From an uncultured Candidatus Competibacteraceae bacterium (GTDB taxonomy: Bacteria > Pseudomonadota > Gammaproteobacteria > Competibacterales > Competibacteraceae), in assembly GCA_903879705.1 (NCBI GenBank), contig CAIRMO010000119.1, positions 1 to 64,000 on the forward strand: a stretch of 64,000 nucleotides of DNA. Direction: 5' to 3'. Positions 39,925-52,154 of the stretch are shown piece by piece. Within the stretch, counting starts at the first letter, position 1; each line of letters starts with the position of its first letter. Under the pieces are notes generated by a model, which did not search any database, was not told the DNA's origin, and worked only from the letters and a program-made list of their open reading frames with translations. The translations under genes and the position numbers were made by a program.

Positions 39925-40518
39925 ATGGCGTTGAATCCGCAATTACACTTCATCAGCGAGCAAGATTATCTGGCCGGCGAACGGATCAGCCCGATCAAGC
40001 ATGAGTACATTAATGGCGATGTTTATGCGATGGCGGGGGCGAGCGTCAATCACAACAGAATTACCGTCAATGTGCTGCGCAACCTCGGCAATCACCTGGA
40101 AAATACCCCATGTGAACCGTTCTCTTCCGACATGAAAATCAAGGCTGGAAATGATTTTTTTTATCCGGATGTGATCGTGGTCTGTCATCATCAGAATAAC
40201 GATTTGTACTATACCGAAACACCGATCATCATCGTTGAAGTATTGTCCAAATCAACCCGCAGAATGGACCAGACTCTGAAACGTCAGGCCTATCAAACTT
40301 TGCCTGGTTTTGAGGAATATGTGCTGATTGAGCAGGATTTAGTGGATGTTGAAATCTGCCGACGAGCTAATCATTGGCAGTCTGAACATTATTATCTGGG
40401 CGATGTGGTTTATTTCGCCGCAATTGACCTGCATTTGCCAGTTGGGGCCATTTATGCCCGGGTCGTTAATCCTGATATGCAGGAATTTTTAGCTCGCAGT
40501 CATCAGGAATCAACCTGA
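39925..40518 (+). CDS. Uma2 family (DUF820) endonuclease-like protein, copy 1
   Basis: The 197-residue protein of the Uma2 branch of the PD-(D/E)XK fold has a catalytic pattern in FFYPDVIVVC (PD), [11 protein letters not shown] (EXXSXST) and EEYVLIEQ. These proteins are common in cyanobacteria and some gammaproteobacteria; their role is not established. It sits between cobD and a second copy, breaking up the cobalamin genes. Confidence 0.82.
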   Translation: MALNPQLHFISEQDYLAGERISPIKHEYINGDVYAMAGASVNHNRITVNVLRNLGNHLENTPCEPFSSDMKIKAGNDFFYPDVIVVCHHQNNDLYYTETPIIIVEVLSKSTRRMDQTLKRQAYQTLPGFEEYVLIEQDLVDVEICRRANHWQSEHYYLGDVVYFAAIDLHLPVGAIYARVVNPDMQEFLARSHQEST

Positions 40519-40546
40519 ACCCTCCCTGGATGATGGAGAAATCAGT

Positions 40547-41149
40547 ATGGCGTTGAATCAGCCGTTACACTTCATCAGCGAGAAAGATTATCTGGCCGGC
40601 GAACTGATGAGTACGGTGAAGTATGAGTACATCCATGGTGATGTTTACGCGATGGCAGGAGCCAGTAAAAATCACGATAAAATTGCAGGTAATATATTTG
40701 CAAAATTTCACCTTCATCTGGAAAAAACCGTGTGTATGCCGTTTTCTTCCGATGTGAAAGTTAAAGTTGAAAATGATTATTTTTATCCTGATGTCACGGT
40801 GGTATGCGACGAAAATTCCGGGGATTCGTACTACACTGAATCACCGATCATCATCGTTGAAGTATTGTCCAAATCAACCCGCAGAATAGACCAGACTCTG
40901 AAACGTCAGGCCTATCAAACCTTGCCCAGTCTTAAGGAATATGTGTTGATTGAACAGGACTCAGTGGATGTTGAAATCTGCCGACGAGCTAATCATTGGC
41001 AGTCTGAACATTATTATCTGGGCGATGTGGTTTATTTCGCCGCAATTGACCTGCATTTGCCAGTCGGGGCCATTTATGCCCGGGTCGTTAATCCTGACAT
41101 GCAGGAATTTTTAGCTCCCAGTCATGGAAAATCGAATGACAATGAATAA
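40547..41149 (+). CDS. Uma2 family (DUF820) endonuclease-like protein, copy 2
   Basis: The 200-residue tandem paralogue of the preceding gene has the same motifs ([29 protein letters not shown]). The 3' two-thirds of the two genes are almost identical in DNA (from IIIVEVL onward), while the 5' third has diverged clearly. This is a recent duplication or gene conversion. Its end overlaps the cobA start. Confidence 0.82.
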
Positions 41150-43656: not shown

Positions 43657-44574
43657 ATGACGACCGAAATCAACCCGTTTTTCAGCAGTTGCCAACCGCT
43701 CCATTACGACCTGCCCGTTTGGCGACCACCGTCCGAAGCGGACAGCTTCATTCTGCAAGCCACGCTCGGTTGCAGCTTTAACCGGTGCAGCTTCTGTTCG
43801 ATGTACCGCACCAAAACCTTCACGATCCGCCCGTTGGATGCCGTCAACACCGATATTCAGATCGTGGCGCGGCAGTACCCGAATACGCGGCGGGTATTTC
43901 TGGCTGATGGCGATGCCTTGGCTGCACCGACTGATCCTCTGCTGGCGATTCTGCAAGCGCTGCAGACCGCTTTTCCCCGGCTGGAGCGCGTGTCCAGCTA
44001 TGCCCTGCCGGCCAATCTGCTGAAAAAGTCGGTGGCAGAATTGACGCAACTGCGGGAGGCGGGCCTGACGCTGCTGTATTACGGCATCGAAACCGGCGCG
44101 GCGGATCTGCTCAAGCGCATTACCAAGGGCGCAACCCCGGAAGCCATAATCACCGGCTTGACCAAGGCGAAACAGGCCGGGTTGAACATCTCCGCAACGG
44201 TGATTCTCGGCTTGGGCGGGCAGATCTATTGGCGGGAGCATATCGACGCCACCGCCGAACTGGTCAATCAGGTCAAGCTGGACTATCTGTCCACCTTGCA
44301 GTTGATGCTCGATCCGATGATTCACGCTGAATTTCAGCGCAAATTTCGTGAACCGTTCCAAAAGCAGGACGACCACGCGCTGCTGGTGGAACAGGTCCGA
44401 TTGATCGAACGGCTGAATCCGCCCGCGCCGCTGACTTTTCGTTCCAACCATGCCTCCAACGCCTTGGCGCTGGCCGGTGAGTTGCCACGGGATCGGGAAA
44501 AGCTGCTGGCGCAACTGGAACAGGCGTTGGCCGGGACGGTGCGACTGCGCCCGGAATGGCTGCGTGGCTATTGA
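43657..44574 (+). CDS. radical SAM protein with CX4CX2C cluster motif
   Basis: The 305-residue radical SAM enzyme has its cluster-binding cysteines at C39, C44 and C47 (GCSFNRCSFCSMY), that is CX4CX2C instead of the usual CX3CX2C. The barrel follows (VFLADGDAL, YYGIETGA, LGLGGQ). There is no B12 or auxiliary cluster domain. The reaction is unknown. It stands alone between uppP and the TIGR02285 operon. Confidence 0.82.
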   Translation: MTTEINPFFSSCQPLHYDLPVWRPPSEADSFILQATLGCSFNRCSFCSMYRTKTFTIRPLDAVNTDIQIVARQYPNTRRVFLADGDALAAPTDPLLAILQALQTAFPRLERVSSYALPANLLKKSVAELTQLREAGLTLLYYGIETGAADLLKRITKGATPEAIITGLTKAKQAGLNISATVILGLGGQIYWREHIDATAELVNQVKLDYLSTLQLMLDPMIHAEFQRKFREPFQKQDDHALLVEQVRLIERLNPPAPLTFRSNHASNALALAGELPRDREKLLAQLEQALAGTVRLRPEWLRGY

Positions 44575-44663: not shown

Positions 44664-45557
44664 TTGACCCGATCCGCTATCCTGAAACCGCGCCGCTGCG
44701 CCTTGACTTTGTTCAGTCTGCTTCTCCTGCTGATCGTCGCCGCGCCGGCTTTCACCCAGGAAAAGCCGGTCGTGGTTTGGTATGTCCTCGATTTTCCTCC
44801 TCTCCTTATCGCTCAAGGCCCCGCCAAGGGGCAAGGCTACATGGATGTGGTGATGCGTCAGTTGATCGAACAGACCCCGGAATTCACCCATCGGATCACC
44901 CACAGCAATACCAAACGGATTTACGACACGATCAGAGATACGCCCAACCTCTGTAATCCATCCACGTTATGGACTCCGGAACGAACGGAATTCATGGTTT
45001 TTTCTCAGCCGATCTTGAGATGGAAGGGACTGCCTAATGGGATCATCATCCGCACCCGGCAGGCAACCCTCTTCGCCCCGTTCCTAAATACCGCGGGTGA
45101 GCTGCAACTGGAAAAGCTGCTCACCGAATTTCCTTTCCGCATTGGCATTGTCCCTGATCGCGCCTATGGCACAGAGATCGATCAGATTCTTGCTCGCCAT
45201 CGGGAGCGCCTGGTCGAGGTCGCCTCCTCGAACCTGTTCGCGAGCAACTTGCTCAAACTGGCGACCCAGACCGAATTTGATGCGGTCGTCGGTTATGCTG
45301 AAGAACTGCACTACCTGATCGGGTCAGGCGCGGTGCCCGCGGAGTTCCAGTTTCTGCCCATTGCCGAAGCCCGGCACCTGCTTGAAGGCGGTATCGGCTG
45401 TTCCAAAACCGAGGAAGGTCAACGCATCATGGCCGCGTTCGACCGCATTTTGTCCCACCCGGAGGTGCAAGCGGTCAATGAAGCCGCCTATCTACGTTGG
45501 CTCCCCAATGACCGGTTACGCGCCTATTACCTGCAACGCAAGGCCGAACAAAAATGA
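44664..45557 (+). CDS. TIGR02285-type periplasmic binding-like protein 1
   Basis: The 297-residue exported protein has a signal peptide (to about residue 32, ending APAFTQ) and a periplasmic solute-binding fold of the TIGR02285 group. WYVLDFPPLLIAQGP is near the start and RTEFMVFSQPILRW in the middle. Such proteins resemble the binding components of amino-acid transporters but lack a transporter here. The start is TTG at 44664 with AGGAAG upstream. It overlaps the next gene by 4 bases. Confidence 0.78.
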   Translation: MTRSAILKPRRCALTLFSLLLLLIVAAPAFTQEKPVVVWYVLDFPPLLIAQGPAKGQGYMDVVMRQLIEQTPEFTHRITHSNTKRIYDTIRDTPNLCNPSTLWTPERTEFMVFSQPILRWKGLPNGIIIRTRQATLFAPFLNTAGELQLEKLLTEFPFRIGIVPDRAYGTEIDQILARHRERLVEVASSNLFASNLLKLATQTEFDAVVGYAEELHYLIGSGAVPAEFQFLPIAEARHLLEGGIGCSKTEEGQRIMAAFDRILSHPEVQAVNEAAYLRWLPNDRLRAYYLQRKAEQK

Positions 45558-46444
45558 CCCTGATTCCACTACAAAGGCTGGGCGGGCGGCTGGCCCTCGT
45601 GGCTATCCTGAGTTCGGGATGGGCGCTGGCCGAAGAACTACCGACCCTGAACTGGCACCGGATGCAGTTCGCTCCAACCTTCATTCTCACCGGCGAGGCC
45701 CACGATCAGGGCTTCGGTGATGTGTTGCTGCGGGCGCTGATCGCAAAATTGCCGCAATACCAGCACCGGTTGATCGCTGCGTCCTTGGAACGGACGTTGG
45801 AGCGGACCGGCGAGGGACAAGAACTGGCCTGCGCCGGTGCTTTGTTGCGGACCCCCGAGCGCGAAGCCCGGATGTATTTTTCCGATCCCTTTCTCACCGT
45901 GCCGCCGAACGGCGCGGTGATCCGGGCCAAAGACCACTCCCGCTTTGAGCCGTTCCTGGACACCGGACGGTTGTCCCTGACTCATGTGCTGCAAACCGAG
46001 AGTTTCGCCATCGGCATCACTGAGTATCGTAGTTATGGTTCCGGCCTCGATGCCGTACTCGCACCGCATGTCGGCCAGTCCTACCTGGTTAAGAAACGCG
46101 GGCAAAGTGCCAGCGCGGTCACGCTGTCCGATCTGTCCGCGCACCGGGGCATCGATCTCGTCATTGCCTACCCCTTGGAAGCGGCTTACTGGCTGAAAAC
46201 CAGTCGTAGTCCGATCCCGCTTCATTTCCTGCCGATTGCCGAGACATCGGCCAATGAGCGATACCGGATCGCCTGTTCCCGCACCCCGCAGGGCGAGCAG
46301 GTCATCGTCGCGATTAACTACCTGCTGACCGACCCGGAATTCCGGCAGGGCTATTTGCACACCTACGCCGACTGGCAGGGACAACTCCTCGGCCTGTTGC
46401 CCGGAGCGCCGCGTTCTACTGACTCACAGGATTCACCCCCGTGA
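45554..46444 (+). CDS. TIGR02285-type periplasmic binding-like protein 2
   Basis: The 296-residue paralogue of the preceding protein has a signal peptide (to about residue 24, ending GWALA), then LNWHRMQFAPTFILTGEA, ARMYFSDPFLTVPPNG, and the same overall length. The two have diverged strongly, so they probably bind different ligands or form a pair. It overlaps both neighbours by 4 bases. Confidence 0.77.
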   Translation: MTLIPLQRLGGRLALVAILSSGWALAEELPTLNWHRMQFAPTFILTGEAHDQGFGDVLLRALIAKLPQYQHRLIAASLERTLERTGEGQELACAGALLRTPEREARMYFSDPFLTVPPNGAVIRAKDHSRFEPFLDTGRLSLTHVLQTESFAIGITEYRSYGSGLDAVLAPHVGQSYLVKKRGQSASAVTLSDLSAHRGIDLVIAYPLEAAYWLKTSRSPIPLHFLPIAETSANERYRIACSRTPQGEQVIVAINYLLTDPEFRQGYLHTYADWQGQLLGLLPGAPRSTDSQDSPP

Positions 46445-48132
46445 AGGAACCGCGCCCGCTGGCAACGGTGCTGCTCCGCAAGGTGGCGGTGTGGTACCTG
46501 ATTTTCGCCGTTGGTATTACCGGCACCCAGTTATTTTTTGAATACCGCAATATCCGGCAGGACATCGTCCATTCGCTGGATGCACTGGCCAACACCTTCG
46601 CCCCCGGCGCTGCAACGGCACTCTGGGATTATCAGGAAGATCTGCTGAAATCCTTGGTCCGGGGCGTTGGCGAGCATAGCGCGGTGACGGCGGTGGACAT
46701 TAGGGACTTCCGCGGACACATCAGCGCGATCCATTCTGCGGAGGAAACTGAAATGGTCTCGCCGGACCTGAGCGTGCGGCAAACCCTGTACCACCGGTTT
46801 GAAGACGGTCAGCAAGAGACGCTCGGCACCCTGAACATCGCTTCGAGCGAGGCCAAAGTAATGGCCCGCCTCAACGGCATTGCGGCATCAGTCGGTTTGA
46901 CCATTACCGCGCAACTGCTGTTTTTAGCGGGGATGCTGGCAGTGCTGGCGCGATTGCTGGTCGTCAGGCCGCTCAGCCGGTTTTTGGAGGAAGTGCGCCG
47001 GTTAGGCGCAACCGATCAGGTGCAGCAGATCGATGCGGGTCCGGTGGAGATCATCGAAATCGCCACGCTGCAACAGGGTTTCAACCAACTGCTGCGCCAG
47101 ATCGCTGAAAGCCGTGCCTTGATTATTACCGCCAACGTCGAGTTGGAGCAGCGGGTCGTCGAACGCACCCGGAAGCTGGATCAGCGTAATCAGGCCTTGA
47201 TGCGAGAGCATGAGTTCACCTTGGCGCTGGTGCGTTCGATTCCGGGTTTTGTCTGTGTGCTGGATGCTACTGGCGGCATCGTGATCGCCAATCAGTCTGC
47301 GGAAGTGCTGATCGGCAGTCCCGGCGTCGCGCTGGCTGGGCAAAACTGGTTATTGCTACCTGCCTTGGCGGCGGCGAATCATCCGTTGCCGGAACTGCTA
47401 CAGCAGGTTCACAAATCCGGCACCGGAAACGCTGAAGCGAGCTTTCTGAAGGATACCGGGCAAGAAATCATCTACCAGTTTGAGGCGCTCCGGGTCGGGG
47501 ACGGCTGGGACACCCGGATCGTTGTGGTCGGCATAAATATCACTGAAAAACATCAGCAGGCGTTGCGGTTGCAGCATCAAGCCTCTCATGATCGCCTGAC
47601 TGGCCTGCCGAACAGGGCGTTGCTGTTGGAACGCCTGGAACAGACGCTCGCCATTGCTACCCGACGCAACGACACCTTTGCGCTGGCGTTCATCGACTTG
47701 GATCAGTTCAAACCGATCAATGATTCGGCGGGCCACGGTGCCGGCGATATGGTGCTGTGCGAAATGGCCGTCCGGTTCTGCCGCTGTGTGCGCGAAACCG
47801 ATACGGTGGCTCGCCACGGCGGCGATGAGTTTGTGTTGCTCCTGCGGAACAGCACCTCCGACGGTTTGCAACGGATCGCCAGAGAGGTGCTGGCGGCAGC
47901 AGCGGAATCGATCTCCTGGAAAGACCGCGTATTTCGGATCAGCGCCAGTATCGGATTTGCGGTATTTCCCCGCGATGGCCGGAGTGTAAAAGAGTTGCTC
48001 GATGCTGCCGACGCGGCGATGTACCGGGCCAAGCAGGCCGGGCGAAACCAGGCCGATTTCGGAACATCGCTGGCGGAATCGGGCTACCGCCATAACCCGG
48101 CCAGCGTCGCTGCCGGTTCCGCCAGCGACTGA
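46441..48132 (+). CDS. membrane sensor diguanylate cyclase (periplasmic sensor-HAMP-PAS-GGDEF)
   Basis: The 563-residue protein has a membrane helix at about 14-32, a periplasmic sensor region to about 150, and a second helix at about 150-172. A HAMP-like linker (about 173-225) and a coiled coil follow. Then come a PAS-like domain (about 255-365) and GGDEF (about 385-545) with the active loop RHGGDEF and DLDQFKPIND. It should make c-di-GMP in response to a periplasmic signal. The start is GTG, overlapping the previous stop (GTGA). The tail overlaps the TssC-like gene by 49 bases. Confidence 0.88.
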   Translation: MKEPRPLATVLLRKVAVWYLIFAVGITGTQLFFEYRNIRQDIVHSLDALANTFAPGAATALWDYQEDLLKSLVRGVGEHSAVTAVDIRDFRGHISAIHSAEETEMVSPDLSVRQTLYHRFEDGQQETLGTLNIASSEAKVMARLNGIAASVGLTITAQLLFLAGMLAVLARLLVVRPLSRFLEEVRRLGATDQVQQIDAGPVEIIEIATLQQGFNQLLRQIAESRALIITANVELEQRVVERTRKLDQRNQALMREHEFTLALVRSIPGFVCVLDATGGIVIANQSAEVLIGSPGVALAGQNWLLLPALAAANHPLPELLQQVHKSGTGNAEASFLKDTGQEIIYQFEALRVGDGWDTRIVVVGINITEKHQQALRLQHQASHDRLTGLPNRALLLERLEQTLAIATRRNDTFALAFIDLDQFKPINDSAGHGAGDMVLCEMAVRFCRCVRETDTVARHGGDEFVLLLRNSTSDGLQRIAREVLAAAAESISWKDRVFRISASIGFAVFPRDGRSVKELLDAADAAMYRAKQAGRNQADFGTSLAESGYRHNPASVAAGSASD

Positions 48133-49598
48133 AACCGCGCCAGCCGAACGACATTGCGCTGGCGGTGCCCCAGGATCGGCATCAGGCCCCGCGCCAAAAC
48201 CGCATTCATCGCCCGCTCGCCCAGCAAGGCTTCGGTTCCGGGTTGCATGATCCGCTCGCCGGCTTCCTCGTAAACATGCACCGGCCAATCCTCGACTTCC
48301 AGCACATCACCAGGACTGAATTCCCAGCCATTTTCCGCAAACCCTGCCGCGATCAACCGGGCGCAGAGGAAGGCCGGATTGCCCCACAGGTAGGCATCGG
48401 GATCGCGTCCGCCGGGCATTTCCTCGAAAGCGATGGCTTCCATCGGATCGGTTTTTCGCCCGTAAGGCAGGCGCAGCAATACCCTCGGCAGGGCCAGCCC
48501 GATCCAGGGCGCAACCGCACAGCGCCGCAGGGCCTGCCAGTTTTGTTCAACCCCAGCCGGCAAAGGCTGCCATTGTCCGGGATCGGCCAGCCTCGCGGCG
48601 GAATCACAGCCCAGCAGTTCCGGGGCCGCCGCTGCTAAAAAGGGACCACCGGCCTGAGCCGCCAGCGAACCCAGCATTGCCAGCAGCGCAATGTCTTCCG
48701 GCCCGGCCCCAAATCGGTAGTCGCCGACCAGCGCCGCCCAAGGCTGGCCGTCCGGCATCTGGACCCCACGCTCAATCAGCCGTTGATAAAGACCCGTGGC
48801 CTTGGGATCGCCGCCCGCCGTCCGCAGATCGGCCAGCAGCTCCTGCCGGGTCGCATCGAGCAGAAAAATCTGCACTGTGCCGCTGTCGCTGTTGACCACC
48901 AGATCATGAACCCCGCGCCAAGCCGCTTCCAACCCCTGAAACGCTGGCTGGTGCAGGATCGCCCGCAATTGATCGCCAATCGCGGCGTCCACCGCCGCCA
49001 CCCAGGCCGGTTGGCGCGAGTCGCTATGAACAATGTGCGGTTGAACCACGGCGTGCAGCAGCCGTTGAATCGCAACGGCTCCGGCATCGACCGATTGCGC
49101 CCGCACCGTCGCGGGAGCCTTGCCTAACAGTCGTCCGAGCAGATCCGCCTCTTTTTCGCTGGCCGCCGCCGGGTCCGTCTGAACCGGCGCAGCGACCGGC
49201 AGCGGGACCAGTTCGGCAGCCGCCTGAGCAAAACTGGCCGGGTCCAGCAGCCGGGCGCGGGTGCGGCGCAGCGTCTGAAAGAGTTCCAGATGTTGATAGA
49301 GCGCATCAGGATGAAAATCATCAAGCTGCTTGAACCGGATCGTAATCGTCTCGTCGGTCGCGCCTACCGGTAACTGCACCGTGGGCGCCAAGCGTGCCAT
49401 GACCGCGGTCAGGCGGTCTACATCGACGGCCAGCACCGGACGATCCGCCAGATCGGGCGAAACCATCGGCGCTTCCCGGTGGGCGCGGCCACTGAAATCG
49501 GCCATGATCAGCATTCGCAGCGGCGCATCGGCATCGTGGCGAGTTCGGGTCGCAATCGACTGGGTCAGATTCAATTGGAATTCCATTGGACTTGGCAT
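48084..49598 (-). CDS. type VI secretion TssB-TssC-like fused sheath protein
   Basis: The 504-residue protein joins two sheath subunits. Residues 1-150 resemble TssB (RMLIMADFSGRAHRE, VDVDRLTAVMARLAP, LDDFHPDAL at 92-100). Residues about 185-504 resemble TssC (QGLEAAWRGVHDLV, LVGDYRFGAGPEDI, LPRVLLRLPYGRKTDP, YLWGNPAFLCARLIA). Sheath proteins are normally encoded separately by tssB and tssC. The start at 49598 (MPSPMEFQ) has GGAG upstream. It diverges from vgrG; no other core secretion gene lies in the window. Confidence 0.75.
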   Translation of the reverse strand: MPSPMEFQLNLTQSIATRTRHDADAPLRMLIMADFSGRAHREAPMVSPDLADRPVLAVDVDRLTAVMARLAPTVQLPVGATDETITIRFKQLDDFHPDALYQHLELFQTLRRTRARLLDPASFAQAAAELVPLPVAAPVQTDPAAASEKEADLLGRLLGKAPATVRAQSVDAGAVAIQRLLHAVVQPHIVHSDSRQPAWVAAVDAAIGDQLRAILHQPAFQGLEAAWRGVHDLVVNSDSGTVQIFLLDATRQELLADLRTAGGDPKATGLYQRLIERGVQMPDGQPWAALVGDYRFGAGPEDIALLAMLGSLAAQAGGPFLAAAAPELLGCDSAARLADPGQWQPLPAGVEQNWQALRRCAVAPWIGLALPRVLLRLPYGRKTDPMEAIAFEEMPGGRDPDAYLWGNPAFLCARLIAAGFAENGWEFSPGDVLEVEDWPVHVYEEAGERIMQPGTEALLGERAMNAVLARGLMPILGHRQRNVVRLARFQSLAEPAATLAGLWR

Positions 49599-49742
49599 GA
49601 CGCATGATCTCCAAAACAGGGGCGATGGCAGAAGTCTAGTCTGAACTTTACGCATCCGGGCCACCGGCTTCCCCACCGGGATTTGCTGCTAAACTCATTC
49701 AACACGCACACTACTGACCACTACAGGTTATGGAGTCTGTCC

Positions 49743-52154
49743 ATGTCAGCTATCACCGTCACGCAAAAACACCGGATAATCGCAGTCAGTACGCCTTTGG
49801 GCGGGGATGTCCTGGTCTTTGGGCGAATGACCGCGACGGAACAGTTGGGCCGGCTGTTCGAGTTTGATTTGGAATTGTTCAGCGACAGAAACGATATTAG
49901 CCCTGCCGACGTACTGGGCAAGAACATGACGGTCCGGCTGGACTTGCCGAAAGGCACCCGTTACTTCAACGGTTATGTGACCCGCTTTGTTCATATTGAT
50001 ACCCAAAGCCAGCGTTACGACGCTTACCGGGTCACTTTGAGTCCCTGGCTGTGGTTTTTGACCCGCACATCGGATTGCCGAATTTTCCAGAACAAGAAAG
50101 TCCCCGACATTATCAAGGAAATTTTCCGCGAACACGGGTTTTCTGATGCCATTAAGGATTCGCTCAGCGGCAGCTATGGGGAGTGGGAATACTGTGTGCA
50201 ATACCGGGAGACCGATTTTAATTTCGTCAGCCGGATGATGGAACAGGAAGGTATTTACTATTACTTCACACATGAAAACGGCAAGCATTTTATGGTGCTG
50301 GCCGATGCCTACAGCGCGCACAAGACCTTTCCCGACTACGCTCAGGTTCCCTATTTTCCGCCGGATGTCCACGATCACCGGGAGCGGGATCACCTGTCAG
50401 AATGGATCACGGTTCAACAGATCCAGCCAGGGGCTTATGCGCTCAACGATTTTGATTTCAAGGCCCCGCGCAAAAATCTCAAGGCGGTGTTGAAAAAACC
50501 CAAGAACCACACGCTGGCTGATTTCGAGATGTACGATTATCCAGGTGAATATATTGATAAAAGCGACGGGGAGAACTACTCGAAGATTCGTTTGCAGGAG
50601 TTATTGGCCCAGTACGAGATCGCGCATGGGCGAGGCAATGCCGCCGGACTGGCGACTGGCTATCTGTTCAGCCTGACCCAGTGTTCGCGCGAAGATCAAA
50701 ACCGTGAATATCTGATTATCTCCGCCGTCCACCGGTTGGAATCGGACGATTATGAATCGGTGGCCGGCGCGGAAGGCACCGGTAAACCGTATCGGGGCGA
50801 CATCTCTGCCATTGATGCCCAACAACCTTTCCGGGCGGCGCGGCTCACACCCAAACCGTTGATGCAGGGACCACAAACCGCCATCGTGGTCGGCAAGTCC
50901 GGCGAGGAAATCTGGACCGACGAATATGGCCGGGTCAAATGCCAGTTTCCCTGGGACCGCTACGGCAAATCCGACGAAAACAGCTCCTGCTGGATTCGGG
51001 TTTCGCAAAGCTGGGCCGGCAAGAAATGGGGCGCGATGAACATCCCGCGCATCGGTCAGGAAGTCATTGTCGATTTCCTGGAAGGCGACCCTGACCAGCC
51101 GATCATCACTGGCCGGGTCTACAACGGCATCAACATGCCGCCCTATGCCTTGCCGGACAAGGCCACCATGTCCACCCTCAAGAGTAATTCCAGCAAGGGC
51201 GGGGATGGTTTTAACGAGATTCGTCTGGAAGACAAGAAGGACGAGGAACAACTGTTTATCCATGCCCAGCGCAATGAGGATATTCGGGTCAAGAAAGACG
51301 CGATGGAATGGATTGGCGAAGAACGGCATTTGATCGTCAAGAAAAAGCAGTTCGAGCAGGTCGAGGGCGAAAAACACCAGATCATTAAATCCGGCGACGG
51401 CGGTGCCGGTCATCACAACGCCAAGGTGGACGGAACCGTGTCGCTGAAAGTGGTCGGCGACCAGAAAGAGGACATCGGCGGCGATCAGCACCTGAAGATC
51501 GGCAGTCGGCAGAACATCAAGACTGGCGGCACCGTATCGCTCAACGTCGGTCAGGACTTGCAGCAGAAGGTCGCCGCAAAGTGCGCGGTGGATGCCGGGC
51601 AGGAGATTCATCTCAAGGCCGGGATGAAGGTGATCATCGAAGCCGGGATGCAATTAACGATCAAGGCCGGTGCCAGCTTCATCGACATCGGGCCGGCGGG
51701 CATCACCATCAGCGGTACGCCCATGGTGAAAATTGTCGGTGGACCGATGGTGATGATTAACAGCGGTGGCGGTTCGGCGGGTTCCGGTTCCGGCTGTTCG
51801 CCAGCGTCCCCCTCCGCCCCGACGGCTCCCACTGCACCCAAGGAAGCCGCTAATGCTGAATCCGGCCAGGTCAGCGACACCCAGGCTCAGAGTCCGGCCC
51901 AGCAGCAAAGTCATAGTCTCGACTCGGTCACGGTTGATAATTCCCAAATGGATAATGGCGACAGCGGGGCAGGCGGTGGCGGTGGTTCTTCCTCCTCCTC
52001 ACAGCAACCCCGGCAGCAGACTGAACCGGATCGGGAGCGGGAGCGGGCGGGGGAAGGCAAGGAAGATGAAGATCAGGAGCGCATTCGGCAAAACCGGCAG
52101 GCCGAGTCGGCCAGAAAAGCCAGTGACAGCGGCCGACCGTTTCGTAAACCATAA
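49743..52154 (+). CDS. vgrG: type VI secretion spike protein VgrG with long C-terminal tail
   Basis: The 803-residue VgrG has a gp27-like part (TQKHRIIAVSTPLGGDVLVF, GRLFEFDLELF), a gp5-like OB part (GRVKCQFPWDRYGK, SCWIRVSQSWAGKKWG, IPRIGQEVIVDFLEGDPDQP), and a repeating beta-helix with DUF2345-like sequence (about 530-680). The last 130 residues or so are low-complexity (Ser, Gly, Gln, then charged) with no catalytic domain recognised. The ATG at 49743 has GGAG upstream. A DUF4123 gene follows 18 bases later. Confidence 0.9.
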   Translation: MSAITVTQKHRIIAVSTPLGGDVLVFGRMTATEQLGRLFEFDLELFSDRNDISPADVLGKNMTVRLDLPKGTRYFNGYVTRFVHIDTQSQRYDAYRVTLSPWLWFLTRTSDCRIFQNKKVPDIIKEIFREHGFSDAIKDSLSGSYGEWEYCVQYRETDFNFVSRMMEQEGIYYYFTHENGKHFMVLADAYSAHKTFPDYAQVPYFPPDVHDHRERDHLSEWITVQQIQPGAYALNDFDFKAPRKNLKAVLKKPKNHTLADFEMYDYPGEYIDKSDGENYSKIRLQELLAQYEIAHGRGNAAGLATGYLFSLTQCSREDQNREYLIISAVHRLESDDYESVAGAEGTGKPYRGDISAIDAQQPFRAARLTPKPLMQGPQTAIVVGKSGEEIWTDEYGRVKCQFPWDRYGKSDENSSCWIRVSQSWAGKKWGAMNIPRIGQEVIVDFLEGDPDQPIITGRVYNGINMPPYALPDKATMSTLKSNSSKGGDGFNEIRLEDKKDEEQLFIHAQRNEDIRVKKDAMEWIGEERHLIVKKKQFEQVEGEKHQIIKSGDGGAGHHNAKVDGTVSLKVVGDQKEDIGGDQHLKIGSRQNIKTGGTVSLNVGQDLQQKVAAKCAVDAGQEIHLKAGMKVIIEAGMQLTIKAGASFIDIGPAGITISGTPMVKIVGGPMVMINSGGGSAGSGSGCSPASPSAPTAPTAPKEAANAESGQVSDTQAQSPAQQQSHSLDSVTVDNSQMDNGDSGAGGGGGSSSSSQQPRQQTEPDRERERAGEGKEDEDQERIRQNRQAESARKASDSGRPFRKP

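Follow-up and report, generated by a model that had tools for sequence, protein, structure and literature searches.

Two genes for periplasmic binding proteins that run directly into the gene of a sensor diguanylate cyclase raise a simple question: do the binding proteins (SBPs) serve a transporter, or do they bring signals to the cyclase (DGC)? This arrangement is found in a 64,000-nucleotide stretch of DNA from an uncultured Competibacteraceae bacterium (hereafter the window), where SBP1 (44664..45557, TTG start, 297 aa), SBP2 (45554..46444, ATG start, 296 aa, directly 5′ of the cyclase gene) and the cyclase (46441..48132, GTG start, 563 aa) are all encoded on the plus strand, neighbouring genes sharing four bases each (ATGA and GTGA). 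Both SBPs score above the curated NCBIfam cutoff of TIGR02285 (143.3 bits), with 185.5 bits for SBP1 and 161.4 bits for SBP2, and are the only TIGR02285 genes found in the genome. Family scores and ORF positions thus agree with the original prediction, which had described two TIGR02285 proteins and a periplasmic-sensor GGDEF protein overlapping by 4 bases. It had also stated that no transporter is present; indeed, no importer turned up among the genes between ~38 and 56 kb of the window that were checked against Pfam, and the nearest transport genes are those of a MacAB-like exporter (53.6–56.5 kb), past T6SS genes.

On its 5′ side, the operon is preceded by cobalamin-type genes, two Uma2 genes, a tetrapyrrole methylase gene, UppP and, just 5′ of SBP1, a radical SAM gene (43657..44574, plus strand; Radical_SAM 8.9e-14); on its 3′ side lie the T6SS genes and then the MacAB-like exporter. 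The radical SAM gene marks the locus because it is syntenic in relatives, and we do not claim it as part of the sensor. A sigma-70 promoter scan gave nothing informative. As to the surroundings themselves, the two Uma2-family genes are adjacent (39925–41149) and lie between the cobalamin-type and tetrapyrrole methylase genes, and a minus-strand ORF (48084–49676) that adjoins vgrG (49683–52154) joins a TssB-like segment (residues 46–144) to a TssC N-terminal domain (177–518). The latter ORF is either a TssB–TssC fusion or a sheath-like paralogue, and a closely similar ORF is found in a relative (G027, L036 3031–4566).

The N-termini of SBP1 and SBP2 look signal-peptide-like (as judged by eye), and no lipobox was seen in SBP1. 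An AF2 model of SBP2, built from seven sequences (pLDDT 71.8), gave 881 matches in the PDB at E <= 0.001, the top ones being mostly amino-acid SBPs; the matches include 4i62 and GlnBP. SBP2 is therefore predicted, on the strength of this model, to have a type II periplasmic-binding-protein fold of the amino-acid-SBP kind, a fold whose structural relatives also include enzymes such as cyclohexadienyl dehydratase. Few positions are invariant across 21 diverse TIGR02285 members; they include two cysteines (C97 and C246 of SBP1). The Arg of a TPER motif is nearly invariant in the same set, and the motif aligns with its counterpart in amino-acid SBPs and cyclohexadienyl dehydratases of known structure: the family has kept the Arg that makes the carboxylate contact in amino-acid-binding relatives. 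SBP1 and SBP2 are only ~31% identical. A tree suggested that they were unrelated recruitments, a proposal that was not upheld, as an AU test on the question of a tandem duplication (p 0.35) favours neither origin. TIGR02285 is not mentioned in the literature searched.

The cyclase is made up, in order, of TM1, a periplasmic CHASE5-like PAS/Cache domain, TM2, a linker/coiled coil, a PAS domain and a GGDEF domain (GGDEF 1.7e-46, 158 bits; PAS_4 4e-06). The two predicted TM helices flank a periplasmic stretch of ~110 residues (residues ~34–146; 46540..46878, plus strand), which is a candidate docking site for the SBPs. The signature that combines the I-site RxxD (RETD) and the A-site GGDEF (47785..47836, plus strand) has both sites intact (RETDTVARHGGDEF), and RxxD-x5-GGDEF is present in every orthologue checked; the enzyme is predicted from its sequence to be active and product-inhibited. 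No sequence match to the sensor was found in the PDB. A model of the cyclase N-terminus shows TM1, a PAS/Cache-like domain and TM2, with a pLDDT of ~90 over most of the domain. This fold is structurally most like the periplasmic domain of CdgS9, a LapD orthologue (4u64; Z 11.9, 118 residues, 12% identity), with the WalK, DcuS and CitA sensors next.

Pfam does not call CHASE5 (PF17149) in the window cyclase, and a PF17149 search of the genome returned no match at E 0.001. We compared profiles with hhalign, using nine orthologous sensors on one side and 34 CHASE5 sensors on the other. The whole sensor aligned with CHASE5 over ~190 columns spanning TM1, the periplasmic domain and TM2, with a probability of 98.8–99.2 and E-values of 1e-16 to 2e-18 that are optimistic because the sensor profile is shallow (Neff ~1.9), so that the argument rests on the controls: the reversed whole-sensor profile gave E 0.26 and two unrelated receptor decoys gave 0.19 and 0.017. 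The periplasmic segment alone matched the CHASE5 alignment at E 7e-9. By this comparison of sequence profiles the window sensor is a divergent CHASE5 domain of PAS/Cache fold, which we call CHASE5-like rather than a Pfam member because it falls below the PF17149 gathering cutoff. The kinases found by TIGR02285 genes in four other genomes (G556, G415, G412 and G509) match CHASE5 too (E 3e-9 to 2e-15) and are likewise missed by Pfam; they adjoin the TIGR02285 gene, except that the G415 C21 kinase is two genes away.

At this locus the gene order in the Competibacteraceae is radical SAM, SBPs, cyclase. The order SBP(s)–DGC and the 4-bp overlaps are kept in four genomes, with three SBPs in G030, two in the window genome and one, SBP2, in G038 and G028; SBP2 orthologues are thus found in G028, G030 and G038. 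SBP1 is absent in G038 and is a pseudogene in G028, where C-terminal scraps with a stop are left. No relative with a full-length SBP lacks SBP2, and because of this retention SBP2 is likely the main partner of the cyclase, SBP1 being probably an accessory predicted periplasmic binding protein added on to it. For most pairs dN/dS is ~0.2–0.35 in SBP2 and the sensor alike (~0.2–0.3 in SBP2), indicating purifying selection of similar strength; since order and overlaps recur in relatives and dN is well below dS, the SBP and DGC genes are real and selected. A search of genome contigs with the sensor alignment returned eight orthologues within the family.

The original prediction of a "locked" operon was nevertheless too strong: SBP1 or all SBPs have been lost or have decayed in relatives (G028, G038, G005, G006, G027 and G037), in which the DGC is often kept. 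Indeed, the DGC is intact in three of the four genomes devoid of a full-length SBP (G005, G006 and G037), which means that the cyclase can outlive its SBPs. G037 has no SBP, and G005 and G006 carry a 72-codon in-frame fragment in which SBP1 residues 1–73 are fused to residues ~229–249; the radical SAM gene lies 5′ of the locus in all three. In the fourth genome, G027, which belongs to the same genus, both SBPs and the radical SAM gene are reduced to scraps, and the cyclase reading frame is interrupted within the GGDEF domain, which could be an assembly error instead of decay. The 72-codon remnant itself (L037 3803–4021; L068 6397–6615) lies just 5′ of the cyclase gene in two species and overlaps it by four bases; it is either a decaying gene or a leader retained for translational coupling.

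We then asked what TIGR02285 genes adjoin elsewhere. Outside the Competibacteraceae, core genes scoring >= 110 bits define 23 loci in 16 genomes. A kinase or cyclase gene is adjacent at 6 of these loci, where HisKA and GGDEF counts would lead one to expect 1.17 (p ~8e-4), and a two-gene window gives a weaker excess (7 loci with a receptor, 2.3 expected, p 0.005), these p-values being indicative because the number of genes was estimated from genome size, each locus was assessed by hand and the 110-bit threshold was our choice. The enrichment comes from one genome set: a repeat survey brought no new genomes, and family and order searches overlapped nearly fully. A survey of GGDEF neighbours had been proposed to decide the matter, and its outcome is divided: a GGDEF gene is adjacent at a single locus (1/23, 0.50 expected), which is near random and led us to reject TIGR02285 as a general GGDEF partner, whereas placement beside receptors as a class is non-random (6/23 vs 1.2). 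All but one of the six adjoining receptors (the exception being G514, L122) are of the CHASE5 type. In G772 (L115) the gene beside TIGR02285 encodes a CHASE5–GGDEF protein, and the TIGR02285 loci of G258, G415, G502, G556, G412 and G509 contain, or have nearby, kinases of CHASE5 or CHASE5-like type. Judging from these gene neighbourhoods, the partner of TIGR02285 is most likely the CHASE5-type sensor, whichever output it carries. Receptor-linked TIGR02285 proteins also group on the tree (7 changes, compared to a shuffled mean of 13.9; 0/500 shuffles as low), partly because close relatives are included.

Other neighbourhoods of the family differ. In one genus (L116, L117 and L118), a TIGR02285 gene lies near an SBP_bac_8 gene, a response-regulator gene and a HAMP-GGDEF gene whose sensor is dCache-like; together they make up a second, different SBP–cyclase cluster. 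In genus g435 (L111, L112 and L114), TIGR02285, in tandem in G742, adjoins a ~1065-aa many-TM protein that is not a receptor and is probably an RND-type efflux pump.

The reciprocal survey started from CHASE5. An SBP_bac_3 gene recognized by Pfam (E <= 1e-3) is adjacent at 6 of 30 CHASE5 loci, to which two TIGR02285 genes add, and an iterated, more sensitive profile raises the number with an adjacent SBP gene to 13/30; 0.23 is expected in either case, and independent cases number fewer than 30 because some loci belong to the same genus (e.g. L156 with L161). Several SBPs per receptor are also found: three in G030, two in G258 and two in G502, while on G415 C21 a TIGR02285 and an SBP_bac_3 protein lie by one receptor. 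CHASE5 receptors were seen to adjoin SBP_bac_3, Peripla_BP_4 and perhaps Peripla_BP_6 and ABC_sub_bind genes (L130, L131, L139–L163), some pairs having a 4-bp overlap.

Among known systems, the closest likeness is to NspS–MbaA of Vibrio cholerae and Sinorhizobium meliloti, in which an SBP gene lies 5′ of the gene of a membrane c-di-GMP receptor and overlaps it by 3–16 bp (PMC9993111), as the SBP genes of the window overlap and precede theirs. The parts differ: NspS is PotD-like and binds polyamines, and MbaA is a GGDEF-EAL protein, whereas the present operon combines two TIGR02285 proteins of SBP_bac_3-like fold with a CHASE5-type sensor and PAS-GGDEF only. In Salmonella, the periplasmic-sensor cyclase STM1987 depends genetically on an amino-acid SBP, ArtI, to sense its ligand (PMC8846402); however, the STM1987 sensor is dCache_1, and ArtI, a putative arginine-binding protein, is not a dedicated operon partner. 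LapD/CdgS9 has the periplasmic domain closest to the sensor fold predicted by our model, yet LapD is an inside-out c-di-GMP receptor, whereas the window protein is a predicted cyclase. The CHASE5 kinase AruS (PA4982) resembles the present case in that an SBP gene, PA4985, lies near its gene; their interaction was not detected, and the authors of that study concluded that the proximity of genes does not always mean a functional link (PMC11113362). PA4985, however, is of the SBP_bac_8 family, and the two genes are not immediately adjacent. The searchable literature holds no known function for CHASE5, the one test found (AruS) being negative, and the literature searched does not mention PF17149.

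Taken together, these data make it probable, in our judgement, that the three genes specify a c-di-GMP sensor coupled to binding proteins, which resembles NspS–MbaA and is built from other parts. The SBPs would be exported to the periplasm and bind a small molecule from outside the cell; SBP2 would dock on the CHASE5-type domain, and its ligand state would shift the TM helices, the PAS linker and the GGDEF dimer, and thereby cyclase activity. SBP1 probably uses the same dock, adding a second ligand or tuning the response. In favour of this coupling we count the conserved SBP(s)–DGC order with 4-bp overlaps in four genomes, the TIGR02285–receptor adjacency (6/23 vs 1.17), the CHASE5 profile match of sensor and kinases where decoys and reversed control fail, the reciprocal CHASE5–SBP adjacency (6 to 13/30 vs 0.23), the cluster of receptor-linked TIGR02285 proteins on the tree, the SBP scraps of G027 occurring together with a broken DGC frame, and the precedent of NspS–MbaA (PMC9993111). 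Against it stand the 17/23 TIGR02285 loci that have no adjacent receptor, the AruS–PA4985 result (PMC11113362) and the intact cyclases of G005, G006 and G037, which may detect a ligand themselves or work with other SBPs. The survival of these cyclases is compatible with an SBP that modulates the enzyme without being essential to activate it. The original prediction that the SBPs are signal-delivery partners of the sensor, not of a transporter, is thus probably the best reading of the conserved operon, the CHASE5-type sensor, the receptor enrichment and the NspS–MbaA precedent; the test that it proposed, centred on GGDEF, overlooks the pattern.

The persistence of intact cyclases in three genomes after SBP loss would also be expected if the SBPs, mainly SBP2, held the cyclase off as YfiR does YfiN (DgcN), with a ligand or the loss of the SBP freeing it. 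In that system a periplasmic protein controls a TM-PAS-TM cyclase, and the LapD/PAS type of sensor fold is one used to dock periplasmic proteins: the periplasmic domain of LapD docks one. The window cyclase scores 196 bits against the DgcN model, below the cutoff of 325, the best stretch being the GGDEF region; its sensor matches CHASE5; no YfiR match was found for the TIGR02285 proteins, whose fold, unlike that of YfiR, is that of a type II binding protein. We regard such restraint as doubtful; it is in any case a sub-case of SBP coupling that differs in sign alone.

Cache-type domains commonly bind ligands directly. The PAS/Cache-like domain of the cyclase might accordingly bind a small ligand itself, with the SBPs having an unrelated periplasmic role (scavenging, enzyme or chaperone); orthologous cyclases that lack SBPs and the enzymes among the fold relatives, such as cyclohexadienyl dehydratase, would fit. 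We consider this improbable: chance co-operoning would not be expected to place TIGR02285 repeatedly beside CHASE5-type receptors with different outputs, nor to place other SBPs beside CHASE5 receptors. Should the SBPs be coupled to the cyclase, the two of them could bring two different ligands to one receptor. The recurrence of two to three SBPs per receptor (G030, G258, G502, G415 C21) and the low identity of SBP1 to SBP2 speak for such a dual or competitive sensor, the model put forward in the original prediction; however, G028 and G038 do without SBP1, and divergence alone is no proof of different ligands, so that we hold it to be rather unlikely.

More broadly, SBPs from different families (TIGR02285, SBP_bac_3 and possibly Peripla_BP types) could all dock on CHASE5-type domains, which would then be a general platform, each receptor often taking two or three SBPs and signalling through a kinase or a cyclase. 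The Contendobacter operon would be its c-di-GMP form, in which SBPs compete or combine; we rate this wider rule as a tentative proposal, with somewhat less than an even chance of being correct. An SBP-coupled c-di-GMP receptor is already known in NspS–MbaA, and the wider rule is the part worth pursuing: if true, many orphan receptors would become pairs, and their ligands could be found through a soluble SBP, which is far easier than through a membrane receptor. In the Competibacteraceae, it would provide an entry to c-di-GMP control and perhaps to the way in which granules and flocs form in activated sludge.
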